The position numbers were made by a program, and so were the translations under genes. Of a stretch of DNA of 64,000 bases, positions 9,995 through 60,939 are shown in pieces (the stretch's first letter is position 1; each line of letters starts with the position of its first letter). Source of the stretch: Phycisphaeraceae bacterium D3-23 (lineage in GTDB: Bacteria > Planctomycetota > Phycisphaerae > Phycisphaerales > Phycisphaeraceae); NCBI GenBank assembly GCA_039555135.1, contig CP114179.1, positions 1,364,001-1,428,000 of the forward strand. The letters are read 5' to 3'. The notes beneath the pieces are model-generated. The model saw nothing but the letters and a program-made list of their open reading frames with translations, did no database searches and had not been told where the DNA came from.

Positions 9995-12187
9995 CTACTC
10001 CTCAACCCCCTCCAACATCCCCAGCCGCCACATCAAAAACATCCGACCGTCGGCGACGTCGCGGACGCGGAGGTCCAGCGGCTTGCCGCCGCCGTGGCCG
10101 CCGTCCTGGTCGACCCATAGGAGGACCGGGTCGGCGTCGCTGTTGTGCTGGGCGGTGTACTGCATCAGGGCCGCCATCTTGCGGGCGTGCAGCGGGTGGA
10201 CGCGGGTGTCGTTTTCGCCGGCGGTGAAGAACAGCGCGGGGTAGTCCGCTTCCGGGTCAACATTGTGGTACGGCGAGTAGGCGTGCAGCCACGCAAAATG
10301 CTCGGCATCCGCCGGGTCGCCGTACTCGGGCACCCAGTAGCGGGCCATCAAAAAGTCCTGATACCGCAGCATATCCAGGAGCGGCACGGCACAGATCACG
10401 GCCTCGAAGAGTTCGGGCCGCTGCGTCATCATCGCGCCCATCAGCAGCCCGCCGTTGCTGCCGCCGGAGATCGCGAGTTTGTCGCTGCTCGTGTAGCCCT
10501 CGTTGATGAGGTACTCGGCGGCGGCGATGAAGTCGTCGTAGACGTTCTGTTTTTCGCCCAGCGTGCCTTGCTTGTGCCAGGCGTCGCCGTACTCCCCGCC
10601 GCCGCGGAGGTTGGGGATGGCGTAGACGCCGCCCTGCTCGAACCAGGGGAAGAGGGTCGCGCTGAAGTACGGCGTCATGCTGATGCCGAACCCGCCGTAG
10701 CCGCTGAGCAGCGTCGGGTTGGTGCCATCCAGTTCGAGCCCCTTCTTGTGCACGATGAACATCGTCACGTCCGTGCCGTCGGCGGACTGATACGTCACCT
10801 GCTTGACTTCGACGAGCGACGGATCGACCGGCACCTCCACGCGGTGCCAGAGCTCGTATTCGTCGACGTCTGGCCGGGCGCTGATGTCGAGGCGGTAGAT
10901 GCTGCTGGGCGTGTTGAAGGAGGTGAAGCCGAGGTAGGCCTCGGAGCGGTCGAAGCGGGTCGAGAGTGAAGCGCTGCCGATGCCGGGGAGCTCGACCTCG
11001 CCCAGCGGTCGGCCGCCGAAGCTGAATCGTTCGATGCGGGTGCTCGCGCGGTAGCTGTACTCGGCATAAAGATCGTCGGAAGATTCCTGGATGCCTTCGA
11101 GCACCATGTCGTCGCGGTGCGGGATGAAGGGGGTCCAGTTTTCGCGGGCCGGGTTCTCGGGATCGACGCGGAAGACCGCGCCGTTGGGCGCATCGACCTG
11201 CGTCTGCACGACCATGCCGACGCTTTCGAGGAAGTCGGGGTAGGTGTTGGCGTCGGCGCCCTCGATCATCGTGACCATTTCCAGCTCTTCTCCGGCGAGC
11301 CAGTCGGCGACGTTGATGAGCCAGAGGTCGTTGCTGGAGGTCGAGGTGAAGTAGCCGATCGCGCCCCATCTGCCGTCGCGGTCCATCGTAAAGAACGGGC
11401 CCCACGTCGTGGCGAGCGGGCCCTCCTTGTACTGCTCGAAAAGGATGCGGTCCTGCGAGTGGTGTTGGCCGACGATGTGGTACTTGATCTGCGCGGAGTA
11501 GGGGTTGTCGACGTCTTCGAGGCAGGCGTAGAAGAAGCTCTCGCCATCGGGCAGCCACTGGACGCTGCCGACCTTCCCGGGGATTTCGTCGGCGAGCCAG
11601 GTGCCGGTTTCGACATCCATCAGGTTGAGCGTGCTGTTTTCGTCGCCCGCCTGGTAGGTGCCAAAGGCGAGGCGTTTGCCGTCCTGGCTGGGCGTCCACC
11701 ACGACATCGCGGTGAGGCCTGATGCGTCGAGGGCGTTGACATCGAGCAGGACGCGGGGCTCGCCGTCGTGGCCTTCGCGGACGTAGAGGACGGACTGGTT
11801 CTGGTCGCCCTCGCGCTGGGTGTTGAAGTAGAGGTTGTCGCGCATGGCGGGTCGGCCGACGTAGCCGACGGACATGAGCTCGCGCAGCCGTTGCTCGACG
11901 GCCTCGCGCCCCGGGAGGTTATCCAGCACCGCGCGGGTGTGCGCGTTCTGCGCGGCGGTCCAGGCGCTGACCTCGTCGGTGGTGTTGCCCTGCTCGTCGC
12001 CTTCGAGCCAGCGGTAGGGGTCGGTGATGGACAGGCCGTGGAGCGTGTCGGTGACGGGCCGCTGCTCGGTGGCGGGCGGCGCGGCGGGCGCGGACTCGGC
12101 GGCTTGGGCGTTGGCGTTCGTTGTCATAGCGAGGGCGGGCGCGAGCCCGAGGGTGAGGACGGCGGCGAGGGTTGGCGTGCGTTTCAT
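9995..12187 (-). CDS. Prolyl oligopeptidase family serine peptidase (S9A), secreted
   Basis: 730 residues with a cleavable signal peptide (MKRTPTLAAVLTLGLAPALA, then an Ala/Pro-rich linker). TDTLHGLSITDPYRWLEGD is the conserved N-terminal segment of S9A peptidases, followed by a seven-bladed propeller (roughly 90-430) and an alpha/beta hydrolase domain. The catalytic triad is visible: Ser in GGSNGGLLMG, Asp in GENDTRVHP and His in QDGGHGGGK. It should cut proline-containing oligopeptides in the periplasm, consistent with peptide scavenging. Transcribed alone; its stop lies next to the right array of the HNH locus. Confidence 0.95.
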   Translation of the reverse strand: MKRTPTLAAVLTLGLAPALAMTTNANAQAAESAPAAPPATEQRPVTDTLHGLSITDPYRWLEGDEQGNTTDEVSAWTAAQNAHTRAVLDNLPGREAVEQRLRELMSVGYVGRPAMRDNLYFNTQREGDQNQSVLYVREGHDGEPRVLLDVNALDASGLTAMSWWTPSQDGKRLAFGTYQAGDENSTLNLMDVETGTWLADEIPGKVGSVQWLPDGESFFYACLEDVDNPYSAQIKYHIVGQHHSQDRILFEQYKEGPLATTWGPFFTMDRDGRWGAIGYFTSTSSNDLWLINVADWLAGEELEMVTMIEGADANTYPDFLESVGMVVQTQVDAPNGAVFRVDPENPARENWTPFIPHRDDMVLEGIQESSDDLYAEYSYRASTRIERFSFGGRPLGEVELPGIGSASLSTRFDRSEAYLGFTSFNTPSSIYRLDISARPDVDEYELWHRVEVPVDPSLVEVKQVTYQSADGTDVTMFIVHKKGLELDGTNPTLLSGYGGFGISMTPYFSATLFPWFEQGGVYAIPNLRGGGEYGDAWHKQGTLGEKQNVYDDFIAAAEYLINEGYTSSDKLAISGGSNGGLLMGAMMTQRPELFEAVICAVPLLDMLRYQDFLMARYWVPEYGDPADAEHFAWLHAYSPYHNVDPEADYPALFFTAGENDTRVHPLHARKMAALMQYTAQHNSDADPVLLWVDQDGGHGGGKPLDLRVRDVADGRMFLMWRLGMLEGVEE

Positions 12188-12238: not shown

Positions 12239-12374
12239 GGCCGAGGCCGCTTCAGCGGCCCGGTGCTTTGTGTCTTGAGTCGTGAATCTTGAGTCTTGAG
12301 TCTTGAGTCTTGAACGCTACCGCATGCTTCACAACTGTTGCAATACATTCCGGGCCGCTGAAGCGGCCTCGGCC
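12239..12374. repeat. 25-bp perfect inverted repeat pair around CTTGAGT direct repeats
   Basis: Arms at 12239-12263 and 12350-12374 are exact reverse complements (CCGGGCCGCTGAAGCGGCCT plus CGGCC). The 86 bases between them hold about five copies of TCTTGAGT-like 7-mers. The same 25-mer occurs inside a gene at 50833-50857. The rest of the 12188-12491 gap holds only the terminator at 12418-12447. Confidence 0.9.
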
Positions 12375-14581: not shown

Positions 14582-14600
14582 GCGCCCACACCCTGCGCTG

Positions 14601-14673
14601 TTTCGCCGCCGCCCAGCGGGCAGCGCGTGGCTTCTCGTAGCATCGACGCGCTGCCCGTTGGGCGACGGCGAAA
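14601..14673. repeat. Intergenic palindrome, 'GCCCGTTGGGCGACGG' family
   Basis: 28-bp arms (14601-14628, 14646-14673), near-perfect reverse complements ending in CCGTTGGGCGACGGCGAAA. Relatives lie at 37405-37432 (half), 48717-48800 and 60832-60911. It may also terminate the esterase transcript. Apart from this and the promoter region of the HTH gene, the 14582-14921 gap shows nothing else. Confidence 0.9.
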
Positions 14674-14921
14674 CAAACGTCTCGCGACCCGATTTCTCGT
14701 CCATCTACCCGCCCCCAAAAAAAGCAGGGCGACGCCCGGAAACGCCGCCCCACCCCGAATAATCTGCATTCATTGTCCCTAAACAGCGTTCCCAGCGGTG
14801 AGAATCGGGCTGCACACTTTCCACGGCGCGGCACCCACCCGCCGATACGATTGCATGTGGACATAGGCCGGTGTTACGTTGTAGCCGGCTACCCTTCGCA
14901 CTCCGGGCCGGAGACTCACCC

Positions 14922-21757: not shown

Positions 21758-22494
21758 TCACCCCGCCGAAACCCGCGTCCCGTGCGGCGTCCCCGCGACC
21801 ACCTCCGCGATATTCCCCGGCTGCTTCATGTCGAACACCACGATCGGGATGTTGCGCTCCTGGCACATCGCAAACGCCGTCGTGTCCATCACGCCCAATT
21901 CCTTCTCGATCGCTTCCTTAAACGTCAGCGTGTCGTAGCGCACCGCATCATCAAACTTGTTCGGGTCACGATCGTAGATGCCGTCCACCTTCGTCGCCTT
22001 CAAGACCGCATCCGCCCCGATCTCCGCGGCCCGCAGCGCCGCGGCGCTGTCCGTCGTGAAGAACGGGTTGCCCGTCCCGCCCACGAAGATCACCACCCGC
22101 CCCTTCTCCAGGTGACGAAGCGCCCGCCCGCGGATGTACCGCTCGGCCACGCTCGTCACCGACAGCGCACTCATCACCCGCGCCGGCTGCCCCAGACGCT
22201 CGAGCGCTTCTTTCAATGCGAGCCCGTTGATCACCGTCCCGAGCATCCCCATGTAGTCGGCCGAGGCCTGGTCGAACTTCCCCGTCGCCGCCAAAGTCCC
22301 CCCCCCGAATAATGTTCCCGCCCCCCACCACCACCGCGAGCTGCACGCCGTGCTGCGCCGCGTCGTACACCTCCCGCGCAATCAGCTCCAGCTCCGCCGG
22401 GTCGATCCCCGACCCGCCGGGCGCGCAGAGCGCTTCGCCCGAGACTTTAAAGCAAGACACGTTTGTAAGTTGGGCTTCCGGGGGCGTCGGGCAT
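21758..22494 (-). CDS. pyrH: UMP kinase, reading frame broken twice
   Basis: Amino-acid-kinase-fold enzyme phosphorylating UMP to UDP. Joining three frames gives a full protein: MPDAPGSPTYKRVLLKVSGE (start ATG at 22494), GIDPAELELIAREVYDA, VVVGGGNIIRGGTLAATGKF, ADYMGMLGTVINGLALKEAL, GGTGNPFFTTDSAAALRAAE, IGADAVLKATKVDGIYD, DTTAFAMCQERNIPIVVFDM. The first break is at about 22446-22452, where CTTTAAAG should be CTTAAAG; the second is in the nine-C run at 22298-22306, where eight would be in frame. Both are +1 changes. A GTG at 22460 could start a truncated form without the first beta strand. Divergent from acs. Confidence 0.88.
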
Positions 22495-22521
22495 GAAACA
22501 GAAACTCCGTAGGGGTACGGG

Positions 22522-22546
22522 ATTCTACTGCATCCGCGCAGTAGAA
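22522..22546. other. Hairpin in the acs leader
   Basis: TTCTACTGC... GCAGTAGAA forms a 9-bp stem with a 7-base loop between the divergent pyrH and acs starts. A second hairpin follows directly. Confidence 0.5.
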
Positions 22547-22572
22547 GCCCACGCTCGCCGAGCGTGGGCTTC
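22544..22572. repeat. Hairpin repeat GAAGCCCACGCTCG in the acs leader
   Basis: GAAGCCCACGCTCGCCGAGC then GTGGGCTTC is almost fully self-complementary; same family as 17837, 19464 and 38265, but 59 bases before the acs start rather than after a gene. Confidence 0.75.
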
Positions 22573-22630
22573 CGGGCGCGGGGAGCAATGTATACTCACC
22601 CCTCACCCACGATTTACCCCGGAGCCCGCC

Positions 22631-24742
<2,112 letters not shown>

Positions 24743-25595: not shown

Positions 25596-25717
25596 CCCGC
25601 TCGGGCAAGATCATGCGCCGCCTCCTAAGAGACATCGCCGCCGGCCGCGAAATCACCTCCGATATCACCACCCTCGAAGACAAGTCGATCGTGGAGAAAC
25701 TGCAGGCGAGTGGGTGA
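25596..25717 (+). pseudogene. Duplicated 3' end of acs (copy 2)
   Basis: 122 bases matching 24621-24742 at roughly 96 percent. It still encodes the C-terminal [20 protein letters not shown] and ends LQASG-stop, with CTC/CTG, AGC/AGT, GGA/GGG and TAG/TGA as the visible changes. No promoter or start is attached. The pattern suggests a fragment from the acs gene of a related strain, or the original acs terminus displaced by an insertion that carried a replacement. The rest of the 25549-25859 gap holds the repeats at 25743 and 25798. Confidence 0.9.
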
Positions 25718-25742
25718 CCCCCGGAAGTTTTGCAAGGCAGGA

Positions 25743-25780
25743 TTGAACCACGAAGACACGAAGGGCACGAAGGAAGGCAG
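25743..25780. repeat. Left inverted array (CACGAAGGA type) of the three-gene patch
   Basis: TTGAACCACGAAGACACGAA then GGGCACGAAGGAAGGCAG. The inverted partner is at 27378-27413; the inward end GGAAGGCAG is shared with other arrays here. Confidence 0.85.
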
Positions 25781-27377: not shown

Positions 27378-27413
27378 GCCTTCCTCCGTGCCCTCCGCGT
27401 CTTCGTGGTTCAA
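27378..27413. repeat. Right inverted array (CACGAAGGA type) of the three-gene patch
   Basis: On the minus strand TTGAACCACGAAGACGCGGA then GGGCACGGAGGAAGGC, partner of 25743-25780. A half-copy of the CACAGATTTCACAGAT repeat lies just before it near 27350. Confidence 0.85.
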
Positions 27414-27436
27414 TCTGCCTGCCGGCGTTGCCCTCA

Positions 27437-27872: not shown

Positions 27873-28038
27873 ACTTACCCAATCGGCACAACCCTACCCC
27901 GGCTTAACCCGTCGGTTCGGCCGGATGCACGGGGGGCGAGGCGTCTGGGACGAGGGTTTTAGTGGCCAACCACGCGTTTTTGCGGTTACAGACGGGTGCT
28001 GCGGCTCCCAGAACACCGCGCCGCTTCAAACGGCGCGG

Positions 28039-28144
28039 GCGCAGCGTTATGCGGCGCGGGCGCAGCCCGGCGCTGCGCCGGCGCAGCGTTATGCGGCGCG
28101 GGCGCAGCTCGGCGCTGCGCAGGCGCAGCGTTATGCGGCGTCGG
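28039..28144. repeat. 42-bp tandem repeat, about 2.5 copies
   Basis: GCGCAGCGTTATGCGG begins at 28039, 28081 and 28123, exactly 42 bases apart, with GGCGCTGCGCC-like hairpins inside each unit. The 27873-28190 gap holds no other feature. Open frames through it are products of the repeat. Confidence 0.85.
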
Positions 28145-28190
28145 GGTGCCGCGCGCTCGGGGCCGGGCGGGTAGACGACCGTGCCGTCGG

Positions 28191-32077: not shown

Positions 32078-32329
32078 CTATCGCCGCCGCTTTGATTCTG
32101 TGCACTGCGGACCGCCTCCCCGCCTCCCCTCGCGCCCTTCGTGTCTTCAGGCCAACCGCTGCTGCCAAGCGATTGCTATCCCGCCCAACCCGACATCGCA
32201 CTTAGGATAGAACCCATCCCAGCCCCGCTATCATCCGTGTGTATCGCGGCTCCATGCCACCGCCTTGTTCCAGACCTCTGTCTTCCCAGCCGCTCTGTGG
32301 TTCATCCCACTCCCGAAGGAGCCCCGCAC

Positions 32330-37364: not shown

Positions 37365-37404
37365 CTCCTGTGTCGTGTCTGCGGCGCAGGGGCCCGACCC
37401 CTCA

Positions 37405-37432
37405 ACGCGTCGCCCGTTGGGCGGCGGCTAAA
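37405..37432. repeat. Half-copy of the GCCCGTTGGGCGACGG palindrome
   Basis: ACGCGTCGCCCGTTGGGCGG plus CGGCTAAA, matching one arm of 14601, 48717 and 60832. No opposite arm nearby. Confidence 0.85.
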
Positions 37433-37454
37433 CGGAGTTGTTTGCGAACCGCCC

Positions 37455-44197: not shown

Positions 44198-47759
<3,562 letters not shown>

Positions 47760-48708: not shown

Positions 48709-48716
48709 GCATCTCG

Positions 48717-48800
48717 TTTAGCCGTCGCCCAACGGGCGGCGCGCCGTTTGTGATGACAACAAGGACAAGGCGGCGCGCCGCCCGTTGGGCGACGGCTAAA
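48717..48800. repeat. Intergenic palindrome with 29-bp perfect arms
   Basis: Best copy of the family: arms 48717-48745 and 48772-48800 (TTTAGCCGTCGCCCAACGGG then CGGCGCGCC), exact reverse complements, 26-base spacer. It lies between two converging genes. Confidence 0.95.
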
Positions 48801-48851
48801 CAATCGGCACGCAACGACCCAACTGAAATCGCTGCGAGCTCATATCCCGCC

Positions 48852-50263: not shown

Positions 50264-51148
50264 TCAGTTTTGCGACGCATTCCCCTCGGCCGGGGGCGGC
50301 GGCGCGGGCGGTGCTTCGATCGGATCGACCGCGACGGCGGGGTCTTCGGGGCAGGCGATGTCGCCCATGATGAACTCGATCTCGCCCATGATCTCGGGCG
50401 GCTGGGGGGCGGGTTCGACGGGCTTGGGGTCGGGCGCAGCGGGCCCCGGCTGAACCGGCGCGATCAGGCCCATGATCTGCGGCACGGGTTCGACCGGCGC
50501 GGCGATACGGCCCATCAGGACCGGCGGCTCGACCGGCGGCGGCGCTTTGACGGTCTGTGCGAGGAAGCCGGCCGGCGGCTGGGGGATCGGCGCGGTGCCG
50601 ACGCCGGCCGCGCCGTACTGGGGCTGCTGGGTCGGCATCGGGCCGATCATCCCCATCACGCAGCCGGGCCCGCCCGCAGGCGCGCGTCCGCCGCCGAAGA
50701 CGACCGCGGCCGCGCCGGCGATCAGCGAGAACACCGAGAGGAACGGGACGAACACGTGGCCCGCCATGCGGTGGGACGCGCGGCGTTTTGTTGCGCGTGT
50801 GCCGGGGTGGTTTGAACGCTGCCGCTTGGTCGCCGGGCCGCTGAAGCGGCCTCGGCCGTGGGGAGCGCTGGGGGCAGGCGCGGCGGGCGGGGCGGGCTCG
50901 CAGGTGTCTTCGAGCGTGAGCAGTTTGCCCGTCGCGGCATCACGCCGGAAGCGGATGCACACGCCGGTCGGGTTGGCGCTCACGAACTGCTCCGCGTCGT
51001 CGCGGGTCATCTCGGAGAGGTTGTGGACGTGCTTCGCGCAGCTGTCGCAGAACTTCTTCTGCTCCCCGCCGGTCATGCCCGACCAGTCCTGATGGCACGG
51101 CTCGGCCACCCCGATCACATCCAACGAAATCCGCTTCTCTGACATCAT
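50264..51148 (-). CDS. Cys-motif membrane protein with Pro-rich tail and an in-frame repeat
   Basis: 294 residues. The N-terminal 70 residues carry EPCHQDWSGMTGGEQKKFCD followed by SCAKHVHNLSEMTRDDAEQF, a 'C-x3-W-x2-M ... R/K-x-C-x2-C-x-K-x-V-x-x-L-S-x-M' domain seen in bacteroidete and planctomycete proteins and probably binding metal. One membrane helix follows (FVPFLSVFSLIAGAAAVVFG), then a long Pro/Ala/Met-rich tail with repeated P-x-I-M-G motifs. Residues about 98-105 (GRGRFSGP) come from a 25-base repeat identical to those at 12239 and 12350. Start at 51148 after GGGAG. Confidence 0.8.
   Translation of the reverse strand: MMSEKRISLDVIGVAEPCHQDWSGMTGGEQKKFCDSCAKHVHNLSEMTRDDAEQFVSANPTGVCIRFRRDAATGKLLTLEDTCEPAPPAAPAPSAPHGRGRFSGPATKRQRSNHPGTRATKRRASHRMAGHVFVPFLSVFSLIAGAAAVVFGGGRAPAGGPGCVMGMIGPMPTQQPQYGAAGVGTAPIPQPPAGFLAQTVKAPPPVEPPVLMGRIAAPVEPVPQIMGLIAPVQPGPAAPDPKPVEPAPQPPEIMGEIEFIMGDIACPEDPAVAVDPIEAPPAPPPPAEGNASQN
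50833..50857. repeat. 25-mer CCGGGCCGCTGAAGCGGCCT inside a gene
   Basis: Base-for-base identical with 12350-12374 and the complement of 12239-12263. Read in frame in the gene at 50264. Confidence 0.95.
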
Positions 51149-51822: not shown

Positions 51823-52875
51823 TCACCCTTCAATCACTTTCAGCGCCGCCAAATCCTGCACATCGATCAGCCCGACGGGTTTGCCGTCTGTAGCAACGAC
51901 GGGGATCTCGTCGAAGCGGTGCTCGCGCACGATGTGGACGGCATCGCGGACGAGCGCATCCTGCGGGAGTGTCGTCGGGTTCTTCGTCATGATCGCGTCG
52001 ATCGGGCTCTCCCAGACCTCCGGGCCGCGCTGGATCAGCGCGGTGCGCAGGTCGCCGTCGGTCACAAAGCCCACGAGCTTGCCCGCATCATCCACGACGA
52101 GCAGCGCGCCGGGCCGACGCAGCCCGCTGTCCTTCGCGGCCTGCTCGGCCTGGGCATACGCCACGCTCATCGCCGTACCCCGCGTAATCGTCCGCAGGTT
52201 CCCTTCGCTGATTCCGGGGGCGCTGCACTTGAACCGCATCGCCTGGGTCACGGGCATCATCTGCTTGCCCAGCCCGCCGCCGGGGTGGTATTTCTTGAAG
52301 TCGGTCGCGCTGAAGTTGCGCGCCCGCATCACGCTCAGCGCCAGCGCATCGCCCAGCGCCATTGTCGCGGTCGTGCTCGCGGTCGGCGCGAGGTTGTGCG
52401 GGCAGGCCTCGGTCACATCGCCGACGGTCAGCGTCACGTCGCACAGCCGGCCCAGCTCGCTGCCGGGCTTACCCACCAGCGCGATGGTTTTGATGTTGTC
52501 CTGCTTGAGCAGCATCGCGAGGGTCACGACTTCTTCCGTCCCGCCGCCGAAGCTCAGGAGCAGCACCGCGTCGCCGCGCCGGACCCTGCCCAGGTCGCCG
52601 TGCATCGCCTCGACGGGGTGGAGGAAGTGGCTGGGCGTGCCGGTGGACGCGAACGTCGCGCTGAGTTTTTGGCCGATGAGCCCGCTCTTGCCCAGACCCG
52701 AGATCACAAGCGAGCCCCCGAGCGTTTTGACCAGCTCGACCGCCTGGTCGAACTGGCCGTCCAGCCGGATATGCCCGATCGCGTCGCGCTCCGCGTCCAG
52801 CACGGTCTGCGCGAACGCAGCGTAACTCTCCCGGGTTTCGGGTCTTGGGTCGCGGGCTTCGGGTGGGGTGGACAT
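51823..52875 (-). CDS. kdsD: Arabinose 5-phosphate isomerase
   Basis: 350 residues: an SIS domain (about 30-190; VISGLGKSGLIGQKLSATFA, GTPSHFLHPVEAMHGDLGRV, and DAVLLLSFGGGTEEVVTLAM) followed by two CBS domains (LRTITRGTAMSVAYAQAEQA; ALLVVDDAGKLVGFVTDGDL; MTKNPTTLPQDALVRDAVHI). It converts ribulose 5-phosphate to arabinose 5-phosphate for KDO. First gene of the kdsD-kdsC operon; divergent from scpA across 43 bases, so the promoters must be short or overlapping. Confidence 0.95.
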   Translation of the reverse strand: MSTPPEARDPRPETRESYAAFAQTVLDAERDAIGHIRLDGQFDQAVELVKTLGGSLVISGLGKSGLIGQKLSATFASTGTPSHFLHPVEAMHGDLGRVRRGDAVLLLSFGGGTEEVVTLAMLLKQDNIKTIALVGKPGSELGRLCDVTLTVGDVTEACPHNLAPTASTTATMALGDALALSVMRARNFSATDFKKYHPGGGLGKQMMPVTQAMRFKCSAPGISEGNLRTITRGTAMSVAYAQAEQAAKDSGLRRPGALLVVDDAGKLVGFVTDGDLRTALIQRGPEVWESPIDAIMTKNPTTLPQDALVRDAVHIVREHRFDEIPVVATDGKPVGLIDVQDLAALKVIEG

Positions 52876-52918
52876 CGGTAGCCGCTATGATAACTGGCCC
52901 CGAGCCCATAGGCCCACC

Positions 52919-54142
52919 ATGCAAGAACCCGCCACCGTCCATCCCGAAAGCCCGAGCCCCCAGACCCCAGGCCCGGCACCCCAATCCGGCGACTACCGCA
53001 TCCGCCTCGACGCCTACGCCGGGCCGATGGACCTGCTGCTCTACCTCGTCAAGCGCCACGAGATCGACCTGCACGACATCCCCATGGCCAAGCTCACCGA
53101 GCAGTACCTGGGCCACCTCGAAGTCATCAAGCAGATCGACGTCGAGTCGGCCGGCGAGTTCCTCGTCATGGCCGCGACGCTCGTCGAAGTTAAGTCGCGC
53201 ATGATCATCCCCGCCGGGCAACGGCCCGACGAAGACGACCCGACCAAGGACATCGACGACGAGCCCGAATCCGACCCGCGCTTCGAGCTTGTCCAACAAC
53301 TCCTCGCCTACAAGGCCTACAAGGACGCGGCCTACGCCCTCGAAGCCCGCGCAGAGCAGTGGGAAGACCGCTTCCCCGTCAAAGCCAAAGCGGGACAAAA
53401 ACCCATCGCGCATGAGGCACCCGAAGAAAAGATGCTCGACCTCGAAGATGTCAATGTCTTCGACCTCTGCGAGGCCTTCGGCCACATCCTCGAATCCGTC
53501 GGCCACGTGGGCGACCACGAAGTCACCTACGACGATACACCCATCTCCCTGCACGCCGAGGACATCCACGACCGTCTCAAACGCGACGCCCCGCCAGACG
53601 GCCTGTCGCTCGCGGAGATTTTCGAGGGACGCAAAGGCAAGTCCGAGATGATCGGGCTGTTCCTCGCGACCCTGGAGCTGGTCCGGCAACACCTCGTGAC
53701 GGTGGTGGTCGATGACCCGATGGCCGGTGGCACAGGCATCCTGCCTGTGAAGACCCCTGCACCTGACAGGCAGGATGCCTGTCCCACCTTGAAGAAACCC
53801 GGGGCGCACATCCGTCTGGTGCTTGTTTCCGAGCAGGACCGCCAACGCGACCAGCACGACACCGACGCCGCGACCGACTGGACCGACGCCGAGACCGGCA
53901 AGATGCAGTACGACTGGCCCGATGCCGAGAGCCGATTGCGTTTCGAGCGCCGCGAACGCCTGCGCTCCACCCTGCAAGCCAAAGCGGACGCGGAAGCCAA
54001 GGGTGAGGCCTTCGACCTCAAGCAATACAAAGCCGCGCAGGCCAACAACGACGCATCGTTCGACGAGCTGGACGAAGAAGAACTCGCGATCGAGGAAGAC
54101 GACGCCGACTACCTCGAACACGGGGACGGGGACGATTCGTAG
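52919..54142 (+). CDS. scpA: Segregation and condensation protein A with an in-frame repeat insertion
   Basis: 407 residues against about 250-280 for most ScpA. The kleisin partner of SMC in chromosome condensation. N-terminal domain: YRIRLDAYAGPMDLLLYLVK, RHEIDLHDIPMAKLTEQYLG, ESAGEFLVMAATLVEVKSRM. Middle: KGKSEMIGLFLATLELVRQH. Residues 270-290 (GGTGILPVKT... RQDACPT) are encoded by a 63-base palindromic repeat that splits VTVVVDDPMA from GAHIRLVLV. The C-terminus is a long charged extension. The frame is open to 52868; ATG 52919 is chosen by family. scpB is not adjacent. Confidence 0.88.
   Translation: MQEPATVHPESPSPQTPGPAPQSGDYRIRLDAYAGPMDLLLYLVKRHEIDLHDIPMAKLTEQYLGHLEVIKQIDVESAGEFLVMAATLVEVKSRMIIPAGQRPDEDDPTKDIDDEPESDPRFELVQQLLAYKAYKDAAYALEARAEQWEDRFPVKAKAGQKPIAHEAPEEKMLDLEDVNVFDLCEAFGHILESVGHVGDHEVTYDDTPISLHAEDIHDRLKRDAPPDGLSLAEIFEGRKGKSEMIGLFLATLELVRQHLVTVVVDDPMAGGTGILPVKTPAPDRQDACPTLKKPGAHIRLVLVSEQDRQRDQHDTDAATDWTDAETGKMQYDWPDAESRLRFERRERLRSTLQAKADAEAKGEAFDLKQYKAAQANNDASFDELDEEELAIEEDDADYLEHGDGDDS
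53726..53788. repeat. 63-base palindromic element translated inside scpA
   Basis: Arms 53726-53750 (GGTGGCACAGGCATCCTGCC...) and 53764-53788 are reverse complements with few mismatches. Exactly 21 codons. The encoded TGILPV and RQDACPT peptides are familiar from many planctomycete and verrucomicrobial hypothetical proteins. Confidence 0.92.
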
Positions 54143-60789: not shown

Positions 60790-60831
60790 AACACCAGCAT
60801 ACCACCCGCCCCGCCGTGACTGCACGACCTG

Positions 60832-60911
60832 TTTCGCCGCCGCCCAACGCGCGGCGCGTGGGCCTGCGGGTATCCGGGTACCAACGCGCCGCCCGTTGGG
60901 CGACGGCTAAA
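60832..60911. repeat. Intergenic palindrome, GCCCGTTGGGCGACGG family
   Basis: Arms 60832-60859 and 60884-60911, with a few mismatches (GCCGCCCAACGCGCGGCGCG against CGCGCCGCCCGTTGGGCG). It fills most of the 60790-60939 gap. Confidence 0.9.
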
Positions 60912-60939
60912 CGGATCGGCCTGCGCGATGGGGCCTGGC

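Follow-up and report, generated by a model that had tools for sequence, protein, structure and literature searches.

In all likelihood, the 25-mer CCGGGCCGCTGAAGCGGCCTCGGCC that lies inside a gene of the window (the whole 64-kb stretch of DNA analysed here) is a REP-type element spread by a clade of REP-associated tyrosine transposases (RAYT), with relics remaining in this genome and with surviving in-gene copies that keep the reading frame. Tiny translated palindromes are here tied to a candidate transposase clade, and with dozens of genes in several congeners they provide a countable case of how mobile hairpins enter housekeeping proteins.

The 25-mer and its host gene

A search of the window for the 25-mer gives exactly three hits, even with up to three mismatches permitted, while 0.01 matches are expected from dinucleotide shuffles. 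The first-pass annotation had noted the same unit in both arms of an intergenic repeat at 12239-12374 and in the gene at 50264; the identity is exact, and at its third site the unit is translated as part of a real gene. The features concerned are as follows:

50264..51148, minus strand: host gene, ~294 aa, likely start ATG 51148
50833-50857, plus strand: copy in the gene, exact match to CCGGGCCGCTGAAGCGGCCTCGGCC, family model R1
50836-50851: stem GGCCGC/GCGGCC of this copy with loop TGAA, family model R1
50852-50855, minus strand: foot CCGA (CnGA type) of this copy
12239-12263, minus strand: intergenic copy, upstream of the prolyl oligopeptidase-type gene 9995-12187
12350-12374, plus strand: intergenic copy, inverted partner of 12239-12263

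Every copy is more than an arm, forming its own hairpin, GGCCGC-TGAA-GCGGCC. The two intergenic copies are spaced by 86 nt as an inverted pair, and their feet are directed outward, which differs from the pairs found beside transposase genes.

The host gene matched no Pfam family; by sequence comparison it is nevertheless a real gene, because the sister species G002, a congener, carries an orthologue with 64% protein identity. For its start, ATG 51148 fits better than TTG 51328 of the listed 354-aa ORF. The protein consists of a Cys-containing N-terminal domain, which is also present in more distant relatives, followed by the element-bearing linker, a hydrophobic stretch and a proline-rich tail, and the 50833 copy is translated as GRGRFSGP between the N-terminal domain and the hydrophobic stretch.

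In the G002 orthologue, the same linker contains CCCGGCGGCTGAAGCGGCCTCGGCC, which differs from the 25-mer by two changes, and the gene DNA is ~72% identical. Since the unit is common to both orthologues at this divergence, the insertion at 50833 is most likely older than the split from G002. The recent spread proposed earlier from perfect identity over 38 kb is thus not supported for this copy, and the 38 kb between copies is uninformative on age. The whole 25-mer is still common to five copies in the D3-23 genome, which may be a sign of constraint or homogenisation.

A dispersed hairpin family in Phycisphaeraceae

The suspected dispersed family of palindromic repeats with translated copies was readily recovered. 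The 16-mer hairpin core occurs nine times in the 4.62-Mb D3-23 genome, compared with zero for the backwards control, and a covariance model combined with a relaxed search retrieved about 20-29 copies there (~20 strong; 29 at E <= 1). Model matches were present in all four congeners, with about 24-29 in each of three of them, as in D3-23, and eight in G002; G010, which belongs to another genus, contained 67. REPs typically exceed 100 copies, and the 29 and 67 matches in D3-23 and G010 are modest in comparison. Among the matches listed, down to E 0.046, there was none in 12 other scanned relatives (the scanned genomes outside G000-G004, G007, G010, G012 and G041), and the exact core was absent from 28 of the 32 other-genus genomes of the same taxonomic family; several of the relatives are fragmented MAGs. 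In public named genomes, a 22-mer was nearly confined to Phycisphaeraceae, Phycisphaera and Planctomycetota MAGs, with three records elsewhere. A Blast comparison of the relatives' exact-core loci with those of D3-23 revealed no site in common.

A survey of 79 copies from six genomes, based on pattern searches, the covariance model and retrieved genome stretches, revealed a common architecture: a 6-bp stem, a TGAA loop and a 5' foot CnGA, in a unit of about 25-36 bp. The stems show compensatory changes (GGCCGC, GCCCGC, GGCCGA and GGCCGG), and the loop is TGAA in 71 of the 79 copies. The foot (CGGA, CCGA, CAGA or CTGA) adjoins the stem on the opposite strand in 65 of the 79, a count obtained with a covariance model partly trained on the foot; among copies found by the core alone, it is present in 9/9 from D3-23 and in ~2/3 of those from the congeners and G010.

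The associated transposase clade

A Y1_Tnp gene in G041 has palindromes with the family's apex on both sides, and its protein, used as a query, retrieved a clade of RAYT proteins in Phycisphaerales. Apex-matching palindromes lie within 250 bp of 17 of 20 clade genes examined (12 on both sides, 5 on one side). Palindromes with TGAA, TTCA or TTAA loops occur at 3.24 per kb within 250 bp of RAYT genes versus 0.042 per kb farther away, a 77-fold difference. In G010, one RAYT gene has inverted pairs on both sides that match the model of the window's family (E 1e-5 to 6e-4). In the alignment of intact clade proteins, HxH (mostly NHYH) and YxxxQ are kept. The only NCBIfam match for two clade proteins was REP_Tyr_transpos, at scores under the cut-off (64.9 and 57.4 versus 80 bits), and for Pfam Y1_Tnp one of them was above the cut-off and the other below.

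An intact RAYT gene flanked by exactly the window's family is thus found in the other genus, G010, and not in the D3-23 genome, in which the clade was found only as broken relics:

1021377-1021936: RAYT relic, frameshifted, flanked by a different stem, ACTGGTTGC...
1062744-1063011: RAYT relic with an internal deletion (middle gone)

Because the clade is present there only as broken genes, the copies in D3-23 are probably relics, and mobility of the family has probably been lost in this genome. In the congeners G002-G004 no match to the RAYT clade protein was detected, and G001 yielded only a distant one. The Y1_Tnp genes that D3-23 carries at 1313070 and 3886903 were rejected as candidate drivers because different palindromes, GGCAGACATTCCTGTCTGCC and GGCGGGCATCCTGCCCGCC, accompany them.

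Copies within genes and their reading phase

Using a simple codon-usage caller, the gene calls of which are approximate, 49 of the 79 copies in the six genomes were placed within genes, which is rarer than the ~81% coding density of the same loci (P = 8e-5). The earlier impression that translated palindromes are far more frequent than expected therefore fails for the frequency of in-gene copies, but it holds for their phase, which is far from random. The 49 copies are distributed as 33 in frame -1, 10 in frame +1, three in -0, two in -2 and one in +2, so that the alanine-rich frames -1 (AEAASAA) and +1 (AAEAASA) hold 43 of them; frame -0 (GGGRFSG) is that of the window's 50833 copy. The sixth frame has a stop and holds no copies, and by construction it cannot be counted as open. 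Across 43 genes counted as independent on protein similarity alone, use of the five open frames is uneven (chi-square P = 4e-12) and the orientation is 33:10 (P = 6e-4). Scoring the flanks alone gives the same phase picture. Native alanine-rich sequence mimicking the element could account for part of this bias.

Comparisons with orthologues indicated that codons were gained in frame at the element in thrS and thiF of D3-23 and in maf of G010. The copies in tadA and coaBC of G003, and those in mqnE and pheT, leave the aligned length about equal to that of element-free relatives. The element sequence in G003 coaBC (L252) and tadA (L264) lies on native helix positions, with the length unchanged relative to the orthologues. 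Such length-neutral copies have no proven explanation: a similar segment may have been converted, an insertion may have been followed by a compensating deletion, or residual chance may be involved. If confirmed, they would point to a spreading route other than insertion.

In the dnaE linker, TTCA-apex hairpins with differing self-complementary stems are located at the same place in the congeners (L294-L297, from G003, G002, G001 and G000, respectively) and in G010 (L304). With a TNAA or TTCA apex, the hairpin was scored in G000, G001, G003, G010 and G032, and weakly, with wobble, in G002. The linker was considered as an element site conserved family-wide, and this was rejected because the hairpin is absent from the 22 other relatives scored.

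Origin of the copies

The most probable history is one in which an HUH/Y1 RAYT clade would have spread a short hairpin of single-stranded DNA, with 6-bp stem, TGAA loop and CnGA foot, in Phycisphaeraceae. The transposase would recognise the hairpin apex and the foot on single-stranded DNA and then move or copy the unit. Insertions in genes would have survived only if the frame was kept and the peptide tolerated, which would explain why alanine-rich frames are over-represented, in linkers and loops. With the recognisable clade members broken in D3-23, the copies of this genome, that at 50833 included, would probably be relics inherited vertically. The sequences show the family, the hairpins beside transposase genes, the relics, the biased phase and the copy common to a sister species; that the units transposed, and that purifying selection produced the bias, is what we infer from them. 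The length-neutral copies in tadA and coaBC of G003, mqnE and pheT stand against the insertion model, as simple insertion does not explain them.

Those in tadA and coaBC would fit local conversion or template switching without transposition, in which near-matching alanine-rich coding sequence would be converted and the copying of one arm onto the other would keep the stems perfect. The exact codons of the G003 tadA and coaBC copies have P ~6e-6 given the peptide, and the dnaE linkers of the congeners, with different self-complementary stems round TTCA at the same place, are also consistent with conversion. However, the thrS, thiF and maf copies add length in frame, and such hairpins are tightly linked to the transposase clade, which makes conversion as the whole explanation unlikely. 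A combined scheme, which we regard as doubtful, is a predominantly intragenic REP suited to translation, with five of six frames open and alanine-rich peptides in the two preferred ones, that overwrites native alanine-rich segments length-neutrally in a conversion-like manner.

The conserved position of the 50833 copy and the covariation of the stem would also be compatible with a hairpin kept by selection for a cell function, such as a terminator, an RNA processing signal or a protein-binding site. This is very improbable, given that copies lie within housekeeping genes in both orientations, that the intergenic ones are at varied distances from genes, that the inspected flanks contain no U-tract and that the copy number ranges from few to tens among congeners. 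Under synonymous shuffling, ~6 hairpins of a general type, with any 6-bp stem, a TGAA loop and a GCC tail, are expected per genome, and a few weak in-gene matches may therefore be due to chance. That the family as a whole consists of chance palindromes from GC-rich, alanine-rich coding sequence is extremely unlikely in view of the nine exact cores against zero in the backwards control, the 28 of 32 other-genus genomes lacking the core and the identical 25-mer in the intergenic copies.

Relation to known systems

The best reading, judged by analogy, is that of a new REP family resembling TnpA-Y1 class 3, the closest system described. In the excerpted account of Quentin et al. 2018 (PMC6006769), class 3 is found mainly in Planctomycetes, Acidobacteria and Proteobacteria, has a Y----Q type signature, and its genes are flanked by atypical CnGA-foot hairpins that recur in the genome. 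The present system agrees with this account in its occurrence in Planctomycetota, in the YxxxQ motif and in the foot, which is CnGA in 65 of 79 copies; the TGAA/TTCA/TTAA apex and the phase bias of intragenic copies are seen in the present family and do not figure in that account.

The hairpin with a 5' foot, and the tyrosine HUH transposase gene with inverted REP pairs on its flanks, resemble the E. coli REP/REPIN and TnpA-REP system, in which the foot is GTAG, the stem is bulged and the copies are mostly intergenic (PMC8266576). GTAG- and CGTC-tagged REPs are palindromes of 20-40 bp that carry the tag terminally and occur singly or as inverted pairs; intragenic, translated cases are documented, including those in Opitutus terrae and Rickettsia conorii, although most surveyed REPs are intergenic (PMC3733652). 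The present family is likewise palindromic with some copies translated, but 49 of its 79 copies are intragenic, and its foot in 65 of 79 copies is CGGA, CCGA, CAGA or CTGA, with neither a GTAG nor a CGTC terminal tag encountered. Rickettsia palindromic elements lie in frame in unrelated housekeeping genes, but they are ~150 bp long and carry an ORF, whereas the present unit is about 25-36 bp and comes with a candidate transposase clade (PMC10969869). As intragenic translated REPs, Rickettsia palindromic elements and class 3 TnpA-Y1 are all documented, what is new here is the family; the phenomenon is already known from such repeats described in other bacteria.

Other repeats in the window

The first-pass annotation had counted four genes with translated palindromes. 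Besides the host gene, carB, acs and scpA do carry them, but as three further repeat families distinct from that of the 25-mer, so that four different families rather than one element are involved:

45986-46019: palindrome of another family inside carB (44616-47759, minus strand), translated in a short hypervariable linker
53726-53788: GTGG-foot inverted REP pair in scpA (52868-54142, plus strand)
~23580-23679: inverted array of (t/c)caagtgg octamers, translated in acs (22493-24742, plus strand; likely start 22631)

The carB family is terminator-like, with 15 loci in the genome (<=3 mismatches). The scpA pair is a 63-nt in-frame insertion that the sister species G002 lacks, and it fits the GTAG superfamily in its GTGG variant (PMC3733652). 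The acs array breaks into normal AcsA sequence.

Several additional repeats were observed. An inverted-repeat family whose foot is GTTTAG and whose arms are perfect over 31 nt occurs at 48716-48801, with related sequences near 14598-14688, 37403-37447 and 60829-60926, and GTTTAG-foot hairpins also flank transposase genes in relatives (L187, L188 and L200). A direct repeat of 118 nt, 98% identical, links 24621-24738 at the 3' end of acs with 25596-25713, ~1 kb downstream. A tandem repeat of ~five 21-bp units (GCGCGGGCGCAGC...) occupies 28033-28158, and CACGAAGACACGAAGG-type repeats, some of them inverted pairs, are located at 25741-25778, 27378-27415 and 32122-32148. Outside the window, REP-type palindromes at positions 77-99 and 1820-1857 of L060 (G000:1311571-1314726) are placed right where predicted ORFs begin, with the peptide GRHSCLP, and probably represent either mis-called starts or translated REPs.
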